Notes: a model not told the origin generated them from the sequence alone. 64,000 nt of DNA from Lujinxingiaceae bacterium (GCA_013697635.1 JACCWM010000081.1:1-64000), one strand, 5' to 3'. Positions 39,214 to 46,005 are shown, numbered from the stretch's first letter. Made by a program: numbers and translations.

Positions 39214-39903
39214 ATGAAAGCGATCAACCCACACCAAACCGCACTCGTCGTCACGGATCCGCAAAACGATTTTCTCAGCACCGATGGAGTCGCCTGGGAG
39301 CTGGTCAAGGAGAGCGTGATTGAGAACGAGACGATCGACCATCTCGAGAAGCTCTTTCGAGCCACCAAGGCCAACGCCATCCCCGTTTTCATCTCGCCAC
39401 ACTATTATTATCCCACCGACCATCAATGGCAGGTCGAGGGAACGCTCGAAGAGAAGATGCACGCGATGCAAATGTTCGACCGCAAGGGTCCCCTCTCACT
39501 GGAGAGCTTCGAGGGGTCGGGAGCGGATTGGTTGGAGCGGCTCAAGCCCTATATCGAGGATGGCAAGACGGTCATCGTCAGCCCCCATAAGGTCTACGGC
39601 CCTCAATCCAACGACCTCGTGCTCCAGCTGCGAAAGCGCAATATTAACACGGTCCTCTTGGCAGGAATGTCCGCCAACCTCTGTGTCGAGTCTCATATGC
39701 GAGAGCTGCTCGAGCAGGGCTTCGAGGTGATCGTGATCAAAGATGCCACGGCGGCGGCTCAATCCCCAGAGCTCGGCGATGGCTATGCCGCCGCCCTGAC
39801 GAACTTTGCCTACTTGGCCAATGACGTGGTGACGACCGACGAGGTCATCGAGGTCATTACAGGACCGCGGCCGCAAGCGACGATGGAGAGTCCTCGCCCA
39901 TGA
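39214..39903 (+). CDS. Isochorismatase-family cysteine hydrolase
   Basis: 229 residues. The catalytic triad is visible: Asp15 (TDPQNDF), Lys126 (SPHKVYG) and Cys157 (ANLCVESH). This fold hydrolyses amide or ester bonds of small molecules such as nicotinamide, isochorismate or ureides. The substrate cannot be read from the sequence. AGAGGAG precedes the ATG. It is the first gene of the plus-strand redox island. Confidence 0.9.
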   Translation: MKAINPHQTALVVTDPQNDFLSTDGVAWELVKESVIENETIDHLEKLFRATKANAIPVFISPHYYYPTDHQWQVEGTLEEKMHAMQMFDRKGPLSLESFEGSGADWLERLKPYIEDGKTVIVSPHKVYGPQSNDLVLQLRKRNINTVLLAGMSANLCVESHMRELLEQGFEVIVIKDATAAAQSPELGDGYAAALTNFAYLANDVVTTDEVIEVITGPRPQATMESPRP

Positions 39904-40235
39904 CTTTTGAACGCTCGATCGCAGCGCTTTTTGCCGGTGTGGTTGTGGTTTATGTCCGCTCACAGACGAGCAAGAGACAAACACAAAAGACATCATGAGA
40001 GTCGAAAGCGCCACCGCCGAGAGTTACCGCTGCCCTCACTGCGCCAGACAGCCTCTTCTACGAATACGACAACCACGTCGTCTCGCTTTTCGTCAGTGAT
40101 ACGGCCCTCTTGGCCGAAGGCTGCTCGCAGTCTCAAGGGCATTCGATCTGTGTTCGCGAAAAAGACGGCCTTCGGCTCATGCTCGTCGGCGATGTCTCCA
40201 CGGCCTGGATGAAGGAAGTGCTCGGCGCCTTATGA
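39900..40235 (+). pseudogene. Remnant of an anti-sigma-like or zinc-binding gene
   Basis: A 32-codon ORF (39900-39998, M-T-F-E-R..., one membrane helix GVVVVY) overlaps the previous stop by ATGA. A second short frame starts at 39995 (ATGA overlap again) and contains YRCPHC before stopping. A third frame, open from 39999 without a start codon, encodes a good C-terminal match in style to membrane anti-sigma factors: LFYEYDNHVVSLFV, then REKDGLRLMLVGDVSTAWMKEVLGAL. The three pieces lie in different frames, so the region looks like a decayed gene. Confidence 0.55.
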
Positions 40236-40251
40236 AGGCTCCCTGAATTCT

Positions 40252-40280
40252 TGTAACGAAATCTCATGGCAGAGTACTTC
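40252..40280 (+). promoter_or_regulatory. ECF-type promoter candidate before dsbD
   Basis: TGTAACG (40252-40258), 16 bases, then TACTTC (40275-40280). The same TGTAACG-N16-TAC arrangement occurs before the fusion oxidoreductase at 43459. It lies 28 bases before the DsbD start. Confidence 0.5.
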
Positions 40281-40307
40281 AATGGGTGAAGCCTGACCTG
40301 GAGACTC

Positions 40308-41576
40308 ATGACAATTTTTGAAGCCATTTTACTCGCCTTCGTCGGGGGTGCAGTCCTCAACCTGATGCCCTGCGTGCTGCCCGTTCTGGCCCTGAAGATC
40401 AGCTCTCTGGCCCGCACGGGCGGCGAGTCGAGCCGGGCCCGCATGGAGCACGGTCTTGGCTATAGCCTCGGCATCATGGCGTCGATGCTCGTCTTGGCCG
40501 CCTCGGTCATCGCGCTGAAATCCGCCGGCCAACTCGTCGGCTGGGGCTTTCAATTCCAGCATCCCCTCTTCGTCGCCGCTTTGACTGCGGTGATGGTGCT
40601 CTTTGCCCTCAACCTGTTCGGGGTCTACGAGTTCACAATTCCACAAGCGATCAGCGGCCTTGCCCCATCTGAAAGCAGCGGCACGCGTCGCAGCTTCTTC
40701 GAAGGAGTGCTGGCCGTCGTCCTGGCCACGCCGTGTACGGCGCCGTTCATGGGGGCTGCTATTGGCTTTGCCATGGCCGGCGACGCCTGGCTCGTCGTGG
40801 CCGTGTTCATGAGCCTGGGCGCTGGTCTGGCCTCACCTTTCGTGCTCGTCGCCTTCGTACCAGCCTTCCATCGCTTCCTACCCAAGCCTGGCAATTGGAT
40901 GGTCGTGATGAAGAAGCTGCTCGGCTTTGCCCTGCTGACCACGGCGCTTTGGCTGGTGTGGCTGTTCGGACGCCTCACGGATATGAATGGAGTCGTTCAC
41001 CTTCTGGGCAGCCTGATCGCCATCGCGTTCGCAGTGTGGGTCTACGGTGAGCTGCAGTACCAGAGCCTGACTTGGAAGCGAACGGGCGTCCTCACGGCGG
41101 TTTTGCTGAGCGTCGGCCTCGGCACCATTTATGGACTGAGCGATCTTCAAAGCGACGCGAGGGACGTCTCGGTCAACGTAGCCAAGGCTTCTGCCGTCGA
41201 GCCCTCGGCCAACCCAAAAATCGACTGGATTCCGTGGTCAGAGAGCCGTGTTCAACACGCTCTCGAAGAAGGCCGGCCCGTATTCGTCAATTTTACCGCC
41301 GATTGGTGCATCAGCTGCAAGGTCAATGAGCGAACGGCTCTCTCAACGCCAGAAGTCGTCGCCGAGGTCGCCCGAACAAAGACGCTGATGCTGCAGGCCG
41401 ATCTCACTCGCCCAGAAGACGAGCTCGTGGCCAAGCTCGCCGAATTTGGGCGCTCCGGCGTGCCGCTTTATCTCGTCTACTCTCCCAAGAATTTGCAAAA
41501 ACCACGCATTCTTCCTCAAGTTCTGACGCGTGACATGGTAGTGGAGGCATTTGCACAGGCCGCCCTTTCGCCCTGA
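40308..41576 (+). CDS. Short DsbD-like thiol-disulfide transporter
   Basis: 422 residues. Seven or eight membrane helices carry the conserved pair Cys22 (LMPCVLP) and Cys143 (ATPCTAPF), the DsbD/CcdA electron relay. A C-terminal thioredoxin domain has W-C334-I-S-C337-K. The N-terminal DsbD-alpha domain is missing, so the partner that receives electrons outside the membrane is encoded elsewhere, perhaps the peroxiredoxin-like lipoprotein next in line. It passes reducing power from cytoplasmic thioredoxin across the membrane. Confidence 0.92.
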   Translation: MTIFEAILLAFVGGAVLNLMPCVLPVLALKISSLARTGGESSRARMEHGLGYSLGIMASMLVLAASVIALKSAGQLVGWGFQFQHPLFVAALTAVMVLFALNLFGVYEFTIPQAISGLAPSESSGTRRSFFEGVLAVVLATPCTAPFMGAAIGFAMAGDAWLVVAVFMSLGAGLASPFVLVAFVPAFHRFLPKPGNWMVVMKKLLGFALLTTALWLVWLFGRLTDMNGVVHLLGSLIAIAFAVWVYGELQYQSLTWKRTGVLTAVLLSVGLGTIYGLSDLQSDARDVSVNVAKASAVEPSANPKIDWIPWSESRVQHALEEGRPVFVNFTADWCISCKVNERTALSTPEVVAEVARTKTLMLQADLTRPEDELVAKLAEFGRSGVPLYLVYSPKNLQKPRILPQVLTRDMVVEAFAQAALSP

Positions 41577-41686
41577 AATCGTCCTCTCCGAGGTCTTGAA
41601 GTAGGCTCTAACCAACGATCTGGCCGCCGCACTCGCTCGCGACGGCTCATGGACATTCACTCTCACTCTTGCAAAGGTCAGCTCAC

Positions 41687-42451
41687 GTGATTTCCAAATC
41701 AAAAATGGCGTCGGTCCTGCTCATCTTGATCTTCATCGCCGCGGCGTGTGAACAAAAGACCCCTGATACCGAAGCCTCTGCTACGGAGGCGAGCCAGAAT
41801 GAAGCGGCTGCGGCCCAAGTGGAGCCTGTGGCGACCGAGGAAGCTCCCAAAGCCCCACGTCTGATCGAGGCGAAAGCTACGGCCGACGATCTCATCGGTG
41901 TATTGCCCGAAGGCGTCGGCATCGAGGTCGGCCAGCCCATGCCGGAGATCGAAGTCCAAAACGCCGAGGCAGTTGCAGTCAACCTAAATGCCCTGGCCGC
42001 CGAGGGGCCGATCCTTTTGGTCTTCTATCGGGGCGGCTGGTGCCCGTTTTGTAATTTTCAGATCCGAGAGCTCACCCTGGCTCACGCCCAGTTCGATGAG
42101 CGAGGGGTCACTCCCGTGGCGATTAGCGTCGACCGGATCGAAGAGGCCTCCAAGACCCAGCAGGCCTACACCATTCCATTCCCGGTCCTCTCCGATCCCG
42201 ATCTGATTGCCCATAAGGGCTTCCGCGTGATCAACGAGGTGGCCGAGCAAGAGAGCGCAAAGCTCAAGATGATGGGCATGGACTTGGAGGCATCGTCGGG
42301 CCGCCAGCACAGCACGGTCGCCATCCCCGGCGTCTTCCTCATCGACAAAGAGGGCGTCGTCAGGTGGGCCCACGCCAATGCGGACTACCGGGCCCGCCCC
42401 TCGATTGAGCAGCTGCTCGCCGCCATCGATGGCGCTTCCCTGGCGCCGTGA
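41687..42451 (+). CDS. Peroxiredoxin-like (AhpC/TSA) lipoprotein
   Basis: 254 residues from GTG 41687, with AAAGG upstream; an ATG at 41705 is the alternative. A lipobox, IAAAC, is followed by a Glu/Ala/Thr-rich linker and a thioredoxin-fold peroxiredoxin-like domain with GGWCPFCNF as active site. The CPFC motif suggests thiol-dependent peroxide reduction or disulfide exchange, with DsbD as a likely electron donor. It is anchored in the periplasm, unlike most AhpC enzymes. Confidence 0.85.
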   Translation: MISKSKMASVLLILIFIAAACEQKTPDTEASATEASQNEAAAAQVEPVATEEAPKAPRLIEAKATADDLIGVLPEGVGIEVGQPMPEIEVQNAEAVAVNLNALAAEGPILLVFYRGGWCPFCNFQIRELTLAHAQFDERGVTPVAISVDRIEEASKTQQAYTIPFPVLSDPDLIAHKGFRVINEVAEQESAKLKMMGMDLEASSGRQHSTVAIPGVFLIDKEGVVRWAHANADYRARPSIEQLLAAIDGASLAP

Positions 42452-42487
42452 TCGAGCTTCGAGACGGATCACAAACGAGGATCGTTG

Positions 42488-43102
42488 ATGACGAGTGATG
42501 ACGAGGCCACCTGGGTTAGGCGGCTCAAGCAAGGAGATGAGGCGGCTTTTGAACGGCTCATCGATACGTATTATGGGGCCATGCTCCGACTGGCTCGAAG
42601 CCTCTGCCCCGATCCGGCGACGGCGGAGGATGTCGTACAAGAAACCTGGTTTGCCATCCTGAGCGCCATCGCGCGTTTTGAGGGTCGCTCCACGTTGAAG
42701 ACGTGGATCTTCGCCATCTTGACGAACCAGGCCAGGAAGCGGGCCGCAAAAGATCGGCGTTTTGCAGCCTGGCTTCTCGGTGACACGACGGAGGACGAAG
42801 CCATCGCTGGTCCAGATTGCGCCACGGCTCAGGCAGCCATGTCGCCCTGGCCTCTCGATGCCGAGGCGAAGGTTCATAGAGACCAAGTTTTGACCATTGT
42901 GCAGGAGGCGATCGAAAACTTGCCTTCGAATCAACGCACTGTGGTGATCTTGCGCGATATCGAGGGTCTCGAGCCGGCAGAGGTCTGCGAGCTTTTGAAG
43001 ATCACCGATGGAAATCAACGCGTCCTTTTGCACCGTGGACGTGTGAGCATTCGCAATACCGCCGATCAGGCGCTGAACCCGAACCCGGAGATGTCCCGAT
43101 GA
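42488..43102 (+). CDS. ECF sigma factor (RpoE type)
   Basis: 204 residues. Region 2 (about 25-95) has the DVVQETW core-binding helix and RFEGRSTLKTWIFAILTNQARK. Region 4 (about 140-195) has LPSNQRTVVILRDIEGL and the helix-turn-helix PAEVCELLKI. GAGGA precedes the ATG. It overlaps the anti-sigma gene by 4 bases and is probably transcribed with the peroxiredoxin-like gene, whose stop lies 36 bases before it. Confidence 0.95.
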   Translation: MTSDDEATWVRRLKQGDEAAFERLIDTYYGAMLRLARSLCPDPATAEDVVQETWFAILSAIARFEGRSTLKTWIFAILTNQARKRAAKDRRFAAWLLGDTTEDEAIAGPDCATAQAAMSPWPLDAEAKVHRDQVLTIVQEAIENLPSNQRTVVILRDIEGLEPAEVCELLKITDGNQRVLLHRGRVSIRNTADQALNPNPEMSR

Positions 43103-43404
43103 TGACGTGCAAAGAAGCCACCGATCAGGTCACCGACTATCTTGACGGGCGAGTTCCACACGGCAAGAGGATCGGCATCTGGCTGCACCTGATGATGTGC
43201 GTTCGTTGTCGATCGTATGTCAATCAGATGCGCCAGGTCGTCGAGCTCATCGGCGATCTCTCCAAGCAACCCCTGACGACGGCACCACCGGATGTACGAG
43301 ACGCCTTGATGGCGGAGTTTCGACGGCGAAAGAACGCCCCCGCCGATGGGCCCGGCCATGTTGAGGACGGTGAGGACGCTGAGGACGCTGAGGACGAAAG
43401 ATAG
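43099..43404 (+). CDS. Zinc anti-sigma factor (zf-HC2 type)
   Basis: 101 residues. It contains Cys4, then His30-x3-Cys34-x2-Cys37 (HLMMCVRC), the ZAS zinc-binding pattern that responds to thiol oxidation. There is no membrane helix, so it is cytoplasmic. The C-terminus is a short repeated Glu-Asp-Ala tail. The ATGA overlap with the sigma factor is the usual arrangement for a partner pair. Oxidation of the zinc site would be expected to release the sigma factor. Confidence 0.9.
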   Translation: MMTCKEATDQVTDYLDGRVPHGKRIGIWLHLMMCVRCRSYVNQMRQVVELIGDLSKQPLTTAPPDVRDALMAEFRRRKNAPADGPGHVEDGEDAEDAEDER

Positions 43405-43458
43405 CTGCCGCGAATGCGCTTAGCGTCCGCCAGGCGCTCGTGTCCTTGGAAGTGAAAG

Positions 43459-43489
43459 TGTAACGATCTGCGGCTCAAGTGTACCGATA
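43459..43489 (+). promoter_or_regulatory. ECF-type promoter candidate before the fusion oxidoreductase
   Basis: TGTAACG (43459-43465), 16 bases, then TACCGATA (43482-43489). It has the same spacing as the site before dsbD. The coding start lies 41 bases downstream. Confidence 0.5.
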
Positions 43490-43530
43490 TATTGGGGAAA
43501 GTCGTTATTCGTGCCGCACGAGGAGTCTCC

Positions 43531-45849
43531 ATGACAGCAACCGTCACCAAGACCAGTTCATCCGCCGAGCCTTCTGACTCCGCCGAGTCCAGGAGCATGA
43601 AGAATTGGATCAAGCCAGGACTCGGCGTTCTTTTGATCGCTGGAATCATCGGCGTCGTCTTTGGTCCAAGCGAGGCGTGGCTCCTTGCCACGACGGAGTT
43701 CATTCAAAACATGGGCGTGACCGGGGCGCTCATCTTCGCCGGGGCTTATATCCTGGGTACGATCTTCTTTTTCCCAGGCAGCATCCTGACCATCGGCGCG
43801 GGTTTTCTCTTCGGCCTCTTAGGGGGCGTCGTGGTCGTCTCCGTGGCGAGTACGTTGGGTGCCCTGGCGGCGTTCTTTCTGGGGCGATACGTCGCCCAGG
43901 ACGTGGTGCGCAAGAAGATCAAAGACTACCCTCGCTTCAACGCGATTTATCGAGCCGTGGGCAACGAGGGCTTCAAGGTCATCTTGCTCACACGGCTGGT
44001 ACCGGTCATTCCTTTCAACTTCCTGAACTACGCCTTTGGACTCACCGACGCGTCCTGGCGACAGTACCTGGCCGCCTCGTGGGTGGGCATGACCCCCGGC
44101 ACGATCGCCTACGTCTACATCGGCGCCGTGGCAGGAAGCCTCACCCAGGCCATAGCTGCGGACGGACCACCGAATTGGATGAGCTATGGCCTCTTCGCCC
44201 TCGGTGGCGTGGCGGTCGTAGCGGCCACCTGGCTCGTCACCAGGCGCGCTCGCCAGGAGTTCGACAAGATCGTCGACGAAGAAGCGCGTCCTGAGCAGAA
44301 AACAGGCCAAATCGAGGTTGAGCATGTGGTTCCACGGCTTGAGCCCGCCGATGAGTTCAACGATAAGCTCGTCAAGAACACTCATCCTCCGGGCTGGAGC
44401 AACCCCGACCCCGGCGAGGTGTACAACTTCATCGCCATCGGCGCCGGCACTGCTGGCCTCGTCGCAGCCGCCGGGGCAGCGATACTTGGCGCGCGCTCGG
44501 CGATCATCGAACGCAAGCTCATGGGCGGCGACTGCCTCGTCACGGGCTGCGTCCCATCAAAAGCCTTGATCCGCTCCTCGCGGGCTATCCATGATGCACG
44601 CCAACTCTCTGCGTACGGAGGCCTGGTCGAAGGGGAGGTCACGGTTGACTTCGGCCGCGTCATGGCGCGTATGCGCAGGCTTCGGGCTGACATCAGCGAA
44701 CACGACGCCGCGACGCGCTTTGCCGACATGGGGGTCGATGTCTTCTTCGGAGACGCCTGCTTCACCGGCCCCAACACGATCGTCGTCGGCGGCCGAGAGC
44801 TCACCTTCACGAAGGCCCTCATTGCCACGGGAGCCTCGCCCATCATCCCTCCCATCGACGGGCTCGACGAGGTCGATTACCTGACGAGCGAGACGATCTT
44901 TTCGCTCACGGAGTTGCCCGAGCGGCTGGGAATCATCGGCGCCGGCCCGATTGGCTCAGAGCTTGCGCAAGCTTTTGCTCGCTTTGGATCCAGCGTCTTC
45001 GTCCTCGACCAGGCCGAGAGAGCGCTCTCTCGGAGCGACTCCGATGGGGCACGAATCGTCCAGGCCGCCCTCGATCGCGACGGCGTCCACTCGATCTTTT
45101 GCGCCAAGATAGAGAAGGTCGAAGCTGCAAGCCCGGGATCGAGGTCGACAAAGATCATCTTCGAAGTCGATGGAGAGCTTCGAGACATCGAGGTCGACGC
45201 CCTCCTCATAGCGGCGGGCAGAAGGCCAAACGTCGCAAACCTTGGACTCGAGAACGCCGGCGTTCGTTTTGACGACAAAACAGGCATCGAGATCGACGAT
45301 CGACTGCGCTCGAGCAAGCGGCATATTTTTGCTGCCGGAGACTGCGCGAGCAAATTCCAGTTCACCCACGTCGCCGAAGCCCAGGCCAAGATCGCCCTTC
45401 AAAACGCCTTAGTCTTCGGACGCAAGAAGGCCACGGACTTGATCATCCCTCGCGTCACCTACACCGACCCGGAGCTTGCCGAAGTCGGCCTCTGTGAAGA
45501 TGAAGCGATCGCCGACGGCCTAGAGTTCGATGTGATCAAGTATGACTTCGAAGATCTCGATCGGGCGATCACCGATGGTGAGACCGCCGGCTTTGCGAAG
45601 GTCTTGTTGGAGAAGGGCAAAGATCGAATTCTCGGCGCCGCCATCGTCGCGCGTAACGCCGGCGACATGATCTCCGAGATGACCCTCGCCATGAACGAAG
45701 GCATCGGCCTCGCCCGCATCTCATCGGTGATTCATCCTTACCCCACCCAGGCCGAAGCCATCAAGAAGCTCGCCGACGAGTATAATCGCCGTCGGCTCAA
45801 ACCATGGATGAAGCGCTGGCTCGAGCGCTTCTTCGCCTGGATGCGCTGA
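43531..45849 (+). CDS. Fusion of VTT/DedA membrane domain and mercuric-reductase-like flavoprotein
   Basis: 772 residues from ATG 43531, with GAGGAG upstream. Residues about 25-230 form a SNARE-associated/VTT (TVP38-like) membrane domain with GTIFFFPGSILTIGAGFLFG and LTRLVPVIPFNFLNYAFGL. Residues about 290-760 form a pyridine nucleotide-disulfide oxidoreductase: FAD motif GAGTAGLVAA, redox pair Cys335-x4-Cys340 in GGDCLVTGCVPSK, NAD(P) motif GAGPIGSELAQAFARFG, and a C-terminal dimerisation domain. There is no mercury-binding terminal cysteine pair, so the electron acceptor is probably something other than Hg. Confidence 0.9.
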   Translation: MTATVTKTSSSAEPSDSAESRSMKNWIKPGLGVLLIAGIIGVVFGPSEAWLLATTEFIQNMGVTGALIFAGAYILGTIFFFPGSILTIGAGFLFGLLGGVVVVSVASTLGALAAFFLGRYVAQDVVRKKIKDYPRFNAIYRAVGNEGFKVILLTRLVPVIPFNFLNYAFGLTDASWRQYLAASWVGMTPGTIAYVYIGAVAGSLTQAIAADGPPNWMSYGLFALGGVAVVAATWLVTRRARQEFDKIVDEEARPEQKTGQIEVEHVVPRLEPADEFNDKLVKNTHPPGWSNPDPGEVYNFIAIGAGTAGLVAAAGAAILGARSAIIERKLMGGDCLVTGCVPSKALIRSSRAIHDARQLSAYGGLVEGEVTVDFGRVMARMRRLRADISEHDAATRFADMGVDVFFGDACFTGPNTIVVGGRELTFTKALIATGASPIIPPIDGLDEVDYLTSETIFSLTELPERLGIIGAGPIGSELAQAFARFGSSVFVLDQAERALSRSDSDGARIVQAALDRDGVHSIFCAKIEKVEAASPGSRSTKIIFEVDGELRDIEVDALLIAAGRRPNVANLGLENAGVRFDDKTGIEIDDRLRSSKRHIFAAGDCASKFQFTHVAEAQAKIALQNALVFGRKKATDLIIPRVTYTDPELAEVGLCEDEAIADGLEFDVIKYDFEDLDRAITDGETAGFAKVLLEKGKDRILGAAIVARNAGDMISEMTLAMNEGIGLARISSVIHPYPTQAEAIKKLADEYNRRRLKPWMKRWLERFFAWMR

Positions 45850-46005
45850 TCCTTGGAACGGCGAGTACCAGCAGGTCGACGAGAACTTCCGACGTATTCT
45901 TGGCCATGGCCTCTGAAACGGGGGTTTGTGCATAGCTTTGATATTTCAAGGTCTTATGTGCTGTCCTTGTGCTTTTTTTAAAGTCTCTCGTAGATCGAGC
46001 ACGCC

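Follow-up and report, generated by a model that had tools for sequence, protein, structure and literature searches.

A TGTAACG promoter-like motif around an ECF sigma factor and its zinc anti-sigma partner, and its conservation across a sigma family

Introduction

When one short element stands before two genes of the same cluster and a sigma factor gene lies between them, the question is whether the element is a promoter and whether that sigma factor is its reader. This question is raised by a 64,000-nucleotide stretch of DNA from a Lujinxingiaceae bacterium (GCA_013697635.1), which was analysed as a whole and is referred to here as the window. A first-pass annotation had reported TGTAACG-N16-TAC directly before a DsbD-like gene and again before a VTT-reductase fusion; it had also placed an ECF sigma factor and a zinc anti-sigma factor (ZAS) between the two copies, and predicted a single redox-responsive regulon with the sigma factor as the likely reader.

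Sequences and Searches

Homologs of the sigma factor were gathered from 57 genomes of the class and from GTDB-wide contigs. Enrichment was measured with a motif-blind test, in which the 400 bp preceding each of 77 non-redundant homologs (the window left out) were scored for every 6-, 7-, and 8-mer against a background of 1257 pieces from the same loci. Genome scans were pattern searches. Genome-wide hits of TGTAAC-N16-GAAC were mostly scattered and were used only where they adjoin the sigma gene (relatives G008, G016, G017, and G020); tandem hits in G021 C146 and one hit in G008 C9 were inspected and left out of the evidence.

The Two Sites and Their Rarity

Both reported copies are exact matches—TGTAACGAAATCTCATGGCAGAGTAC at site 1 and TGTAACGATCTGCGGCTCAAGTGTAC at site 2, each on the coding strand of its downstream gene—and Pfam matches confirm that the sigma factor and zinc anti-sigma factor lie between them (Table 1). 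The identity between the copies exceeds the earlier description; when aligned, they have in common TGTAACGA, followed by 14 mostly free bases and a common GTAC, giving the form TGTAACGA-N14-GTAC. No further matches occur within the window, even with one mismatch allowed. Window-level statistics are weak evidence by themselves: when the window is shuffled and one mismatch is allowed, the mean is 0.67 matches, and 18 of 100 shuffles reach two or more.

The motif is not frequent in the genome. Across all 6.2 Mb the exact pattern is found three times, against five for a reversed-pattern control, and TGTAACG-N17-AC ten times (control, 33); copies of the latter outside the window lie within open frames, with the exception of one C78 site. 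By chance, a same-strand pair within 3.3 kb is expected about 0.0016–0.005 times with the exact pattern and 0.024 times with the loose one. The third exact copy (G000:C78:50319-50344, minus strand; L001) is intergenic, about 70 bp ahead of a kinase-like gene, and is a possible further member of the regulon.

Genes of the Cluster

Five genes lie between and around the two sites, all on one strand (Table 1). The DsbD-like protein retains both transmembrane cysteines (C22 and C143) and a CxxC pair (C334/C337); the alpha domain is absent. The sigma factor falls within the NCBIfam superfamily TIGR02937, with equivalogs matched below threshold only. The sigma and anti-sigma genes share 4 bp, NF052368 matches above its cut-off at the pair, and the anti-sigma protein has no obvious membrane segment. 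Its cysteines and histidine fit the C/H-x23-26-H-x3-C-x2-C signature; with adjacent, overlapping genes and this zinc signature, the pair fits the class of ECF sigma factors with a cytoplasmic ZAS (the RsrA/MseR/HrsE kind).

Table 1. Features of the cluster, in window coordinates.
Feature	Position	Strand	Details
Predicted ECF promoter 1	40252..40277	+	-35 TGTAACG, -10 GTAC; AC at offset 24; DsbD-like ATG 30 bp past its end
DsbD-like membrane thiol transporter	40308..41576	+	Pfam DsbD_TM and Thioredoxin_7; beta (TM) and gamma (thioredoxin) domains
AhpC/TSA peroxiredoxin-like lipoprotein	41690..42451	+	Lipobox-like C20; CxxC C118/C121
ECF sigma factor (proposed to read promoters 1 and 2)	42488..43102	+	Pfam Sigma70_r2/r4_2; region 4.2 helix NQRVLLHRGR
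Cytoplasmic zinc anti-sigma factor (ZAS)	43099..43404	+	Pfam zf-HC2; 101 aa; C4-x25-H30-x3-C34-x2-C37
Predicted ECF promoter 2	43459..43484	+	-35 TGTAACG, -10 GTAC; VTT-reductase ATG 46 bp past its end
VTT/DedA membrane domain fused to FAD disulfide reductase	43531..45849	+	Pfam VTT and Pyr_redox; redox pair C335/C340 in GGDCLVTGC

The reductase part of the VTT fusion is of the PRK06370 type, with its redox cysteine pair intact. Two more specific identities were tried and rejected—MerA, where the equivalog cut-off was missed (382 vs 454 bits), and RclA, where it was also missed (239 vs 740 bits). The protein also lacks a C-terminal cysteine pair.

The intergenic gaps are 113 bp between the DsbD-like and peroxiredoxin genes, 36 bp between the peroxiredoxin and sigma genes, and -4 bp between the sigma and anti-sigma genes. 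No terminator is predicted in the first gap, and a search of 39900-46000 gave no sigma-70-like promoter. The gaps, together with the terminator-free DsbD–peroxiredoxin interval, suggest that site 1 serves a four-gene operon (DsbD-like, peroxiredoxin, sigma, and anti-sigma) and site 2 the VTT-reductase gene.

Upstream of the cluster, the stretch directly 5' of promoter 1 (39990-40240) is non-coding or decayed and resembles a broken small gene: one frame is open for 63 aa (40044-40235), with no match in NCBIfam, and a second frame holds a fragment that bears a CxxC. Further upstream lies a gene for an isochorismatase-family hydrolase (39214-39903), which is without the motif.

The Motif Tracks the Sigma Family

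The motif-blind test returned the same element. TGTAAC was the top 6-mer, in 32 of 77 upstream regions vs 53 of 1257 background pieces, and TGTAACG the top 7-mer (25/77 vs 24/1257), each with log10 p = -22.9; 46 of the 77 regions have no TGTAAC within 400 bp. When sites are aligned on TGTAAC, AC lies at offset 24 in 20 of 35 (p = 2e-16) and at the immediately neighbouring offsets in 0–4; offset 24 is its position in both window sites. A search of 714 kb of GTDB loci gave 52 copies of TGTAACG-N16..18-AC, the highest count of 630 permutations of its letters (mean 7.0); many of these loci have AC one base later, at offset 25.

Comparison of orthologous upstream regions also bears out the first-pass annotation. 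TGTAAC is kept in the 400 bp upstream of the sigma gene in 9 of 11 class orthologs, compared with 1 of 17 control ECFs (p = 7e-5), and the full motif is upstream of none of the 17 controls, which are of the same class. The two groups also differ in the region 4.2 helix: the sigma family has NQRVLLHR(A/G)R or close to it (NQRVLLHRxR as the family form), whereas the controls have GTVKSRLHRAR-like helices. This distinctive helix would be the mechanistic correlate of the TGTAAC motif. Among the partner anti-sigma factors, all 73 that were checked have a complete Cys-His-Cys-Cys zinc signature.

Targets in Relatives

In G020, TGTAACGAATTTACCTCCCGGCGAAC stands before the sigma gene and TGTAACGATTGGCGAGGTTAATGTAC before the peroxiredoxin ortholog, which lies beyond the anti-sigma gene. 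The closest DsbD homolog of G017 is on another contig, behind a DUF547 lipoprotein gene in what is probably an operon, and TGTAACATTTCCTCGCTGTCCTGCAC precedes the DUF547 start. In other phyla the motif stands ahead of genes for MsrB (L127), an FAD disulfide reductase (L139), an EgtD-family histidine methyltransferase (L064), DUF547 (L116), and cytochrome P460 (L126). It lies directly before the sigma gene itself in G020, L112, and L113; in L080 and L089 the gene order behind it is ZAS–reductase–ECF; and in G013 a divergent gene for a DsbA-like protein lies behind a weaker copy, identified by eye. For a number of targets elsewhere (HD protein, DUF3179, DUF547, and lactonase-like), a redox role is not obvious.

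At the targets themselves, the motif recurs before the peroxiredoxin ortholog of G020 and the DUF547-DsbD genes of G017; where homologs of DsbD or the VTT-reductase are not linked to this sigma factor, it was not found. Conservation therefore follows the sigma factor and not each target.

Several neighbouring genes deserve mention in their own right. In two distant phyla the motif is followed by a gene for a DUF547 protein (L260:447-1295 and L116:4933-5874), and one of the two genes belongs to a probable DsbD operon; DUF547 proteins are thus candidates for a role in redox defence. In mycobacteria, genes for DUF417 and DoxX membrane proteins (L065:8159-8680 and L070:7015-7524) follow TGTAACG sites in the neighbourhood of the sigma homolog; RclC, which acts in the hypochlorite response of E. 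coli, is a DUF417 protein, and this hints at reactive chlorine as a signal. Among class relatives, a second, different ECF gene adjoins the orthologous sigma gene, with a TGTAAC motif ahead, in L200, L201, L204, L205, L209, and L210. Where the site faces a second, divergently oriented ECF gene, as it does in several class relatives, there may be a two-sigma cascade or a second reader.

Comparison with Described Systems

By analogy, the system is best read as working like RpoE2-HrsE of Haemophilus or sigmaE-MseR of Neisseria, with an ECF16-like promoter. As in the window, the ECF gene of those systems adjoins that of a small zinc anti-sigma factor with the C/H-x23-26-H-x3-C-x2-C pattern (PMC7907618, PMC2893595); the described cases are autoregulated, with an MsrAB regulon and targets in oxidative-damage repair (PMC7907618, PMC2893595), and the MsrB target in L127 is a further likeness. 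The promoters and targets differ: the deduced Neisseria promoter, GTMAGBWTT / CGTCTAAH with a spacing of 12–13 nt (PMC2893595), is unlike the window's TGTAACG-N17-AC, and the window's targets are the DsbD-like protein, the peroxiredoxin, and the VTT-reductase; the window's anti-sigma factor also has an extended acidic tail. No response to the oxidants tried was seen with meningococcal MseR, whose cysteine pattern is the same (PMC2893595), and for this reason an oxidant signal in the present system should be proposed with caution.

In promoter form, the window sites closely resemble those of ECF16, for which we compared EcfF-OsrA (Bradyrhizobium), SigF-NrsF (Caulobacter), and BcrS-AbcS (Brucella). 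Published ECF16 promoters are GTAAC(g/a)-N14-15-(c/t)CG(t/a) and TGTAAC-N17-CGAA, the response is to ROS/HOCl, and the EcfF regulon includes a DsbD-like membrane protein and thioredoxin (PMC3420878, PMC8315932). Set against the ECF16 form tGTAACc-N16-CGAA, the -35 fits; the -10 is GTAC in the window and (C)GAAC in G016, G017, and G020. The promoter likeness raised the possibility of ECF16 membership, which we rejected. The ECF16 anti-sigma factor is a six-TM DUF1109/NrsF protein, whereas the window's is a soluble zf-HC2 ZAS, and PF06532 (DUF1109/NrsF) has no match in the genome (the Caulobacter control was positive). Moreover, the readable NrsF-linked ECFs of the same phylum have mostly TAVKLRAHRAY-type helices, not NQRVLLHR. 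The absence of NrsF and the different helix therefore point to an ECF system of the ZAS type whose promoter is ECF16-like. The NrsF-linked ECF loci of the phylum were uninformative for a comparison of promoters, with any TGTAAC in one of 15 and an ECF16-type motif in none.

The sigmaR-RsrA pair of Streptomyces (ECF12) is alike in its redox-sensing ZAS anti-sigma factor, and the window's anti-sigma factor matches TIGR03988 (RsrA) below threshold. However, the sigmaR promoter is GGAAT-N18-GTT, whereas both window sites are TGTAACG-N17-AC, and the target set is different.

Which Factor Reads the Motif

Taken from the sequence evidence above, both copies are very probably promoters, with TGTAACG as the -35 and GTAC as the -10 element, recognised by the ECF sigma factor whose gene they flank; this factor would be held by its ZAS, freed by oxidants, and autoregulated. 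A different ECF sigma factor of the genome, acting through crosstalk or a cascade, is an unlikely reader. A first-look search gave 23 ECF-like candidates in this genome, and the class relatives with a divergent second ECF gene facing the motif would suit such a reader; however, enrichment follows the family of the adjacent sigma factor and the motif is missing upstream of the 17 other class ECFs, both the window and G020 carry it with no second ECF gene adjoining, and NrsF, the anti-sigma factor of ECF16, is absent from the genome.

A binding site for a transcription factor, whether activator or repressor, common to both genes is highly improbable. A rare element common to two upstream regions could be an operator, but this one is bipartite with fixed spacing, is not palindromic, lies 30–46 bp ahead of the start codons, resembles the published ECF16 promoter form of TGTAAC and CGAA at N16-17 (PMC3420878, PMC8315932), and is found together with a sigma family whose -35-recognition helix is distinctive. 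That a short pattern recurred by chance is the least probable of the readings, even though the shuffled windows by themselves would allow it and the other genomic copies look random and lie mostly within genes, because k-mer enrichment upstream of the 77 homologs recovered the same 7-mer and spacing independently in other phyla and so few same-strand pairs this close are expected.

A Proposed Circuit

With the adjacent sigma factor as reader, the cluster would work as follows. At rest, the sigma factor would be bound by its zinc anti-sigma partner, and oxidation of the Cys-His-Cys-Cys zinc site would set it free. Free sigma factor would then transcribe the operon for the DsbD-like protein, peroxiredoxin lipoprotein, sigma factor, and anti-sigma factor from site 1, which would provide positive autoregulation together with a built-in shut-off, and the VTT-FAD-reductase gene from site 2. 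Autoregulation is the best reading of the window motif that lies before the probable sigma-containing operon. The membrane and periplasm may receive reducing power from the products, which may also serve in peroxide removal or the repair of oxidised thiols; a membrane thiol-transfer chain and a membrane-tethered FAD reductase would thus be switched on together. As for the single redox-responsive regulon of the first-pass annotation, its promoters and reader are supported, since the motif tracks the sigma family and its helix, while we infer the redox response from the zinc signature, complete at 73 of 73 loci, and from the identity of the targets.

Significance for the Family

The seven-base element first noted in the window is supported, by its recurrence near homologous sigma genes, as the probable -35 signature of a multi-phylum ECF-ZAS family. 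On balance, we lean towards a widespread and apparently undescribed redox family, which has the NQRVLLHRxR helix, keeps TGTAACG-N17-AC across Actinomycetota, Acidobacteriota, Chloroflexota, Planctomycetota, and the window's phylum, controls lineage-specific sets of thiol-repair and disulfide-reductase genes, and has reached an ECF16-like promoter with an unrelated helix and anti-sigma factor. Its novelty is provisional; TGTAACG combined with an ECF sigma factor was not found in the literature that we searched, a scope outside of which the published ECF re-classification lies.

A promoter code drawn by eye from two copies is thus a conserved signature of a sigma family that spans at least five phyla, and genes for oxidative-damage repair often follow it there. 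The pairing of a specific -35 element with a specific region 4.2 helix is directly testable. The motif can also serve as a query for the oxidative-stress regulons of many uncultured or hard-to-manipulate bacteria from sequence alone—and in this bacterium it connects a probable thiol-stress response with an uncharacterised VTT-reductase fusion.
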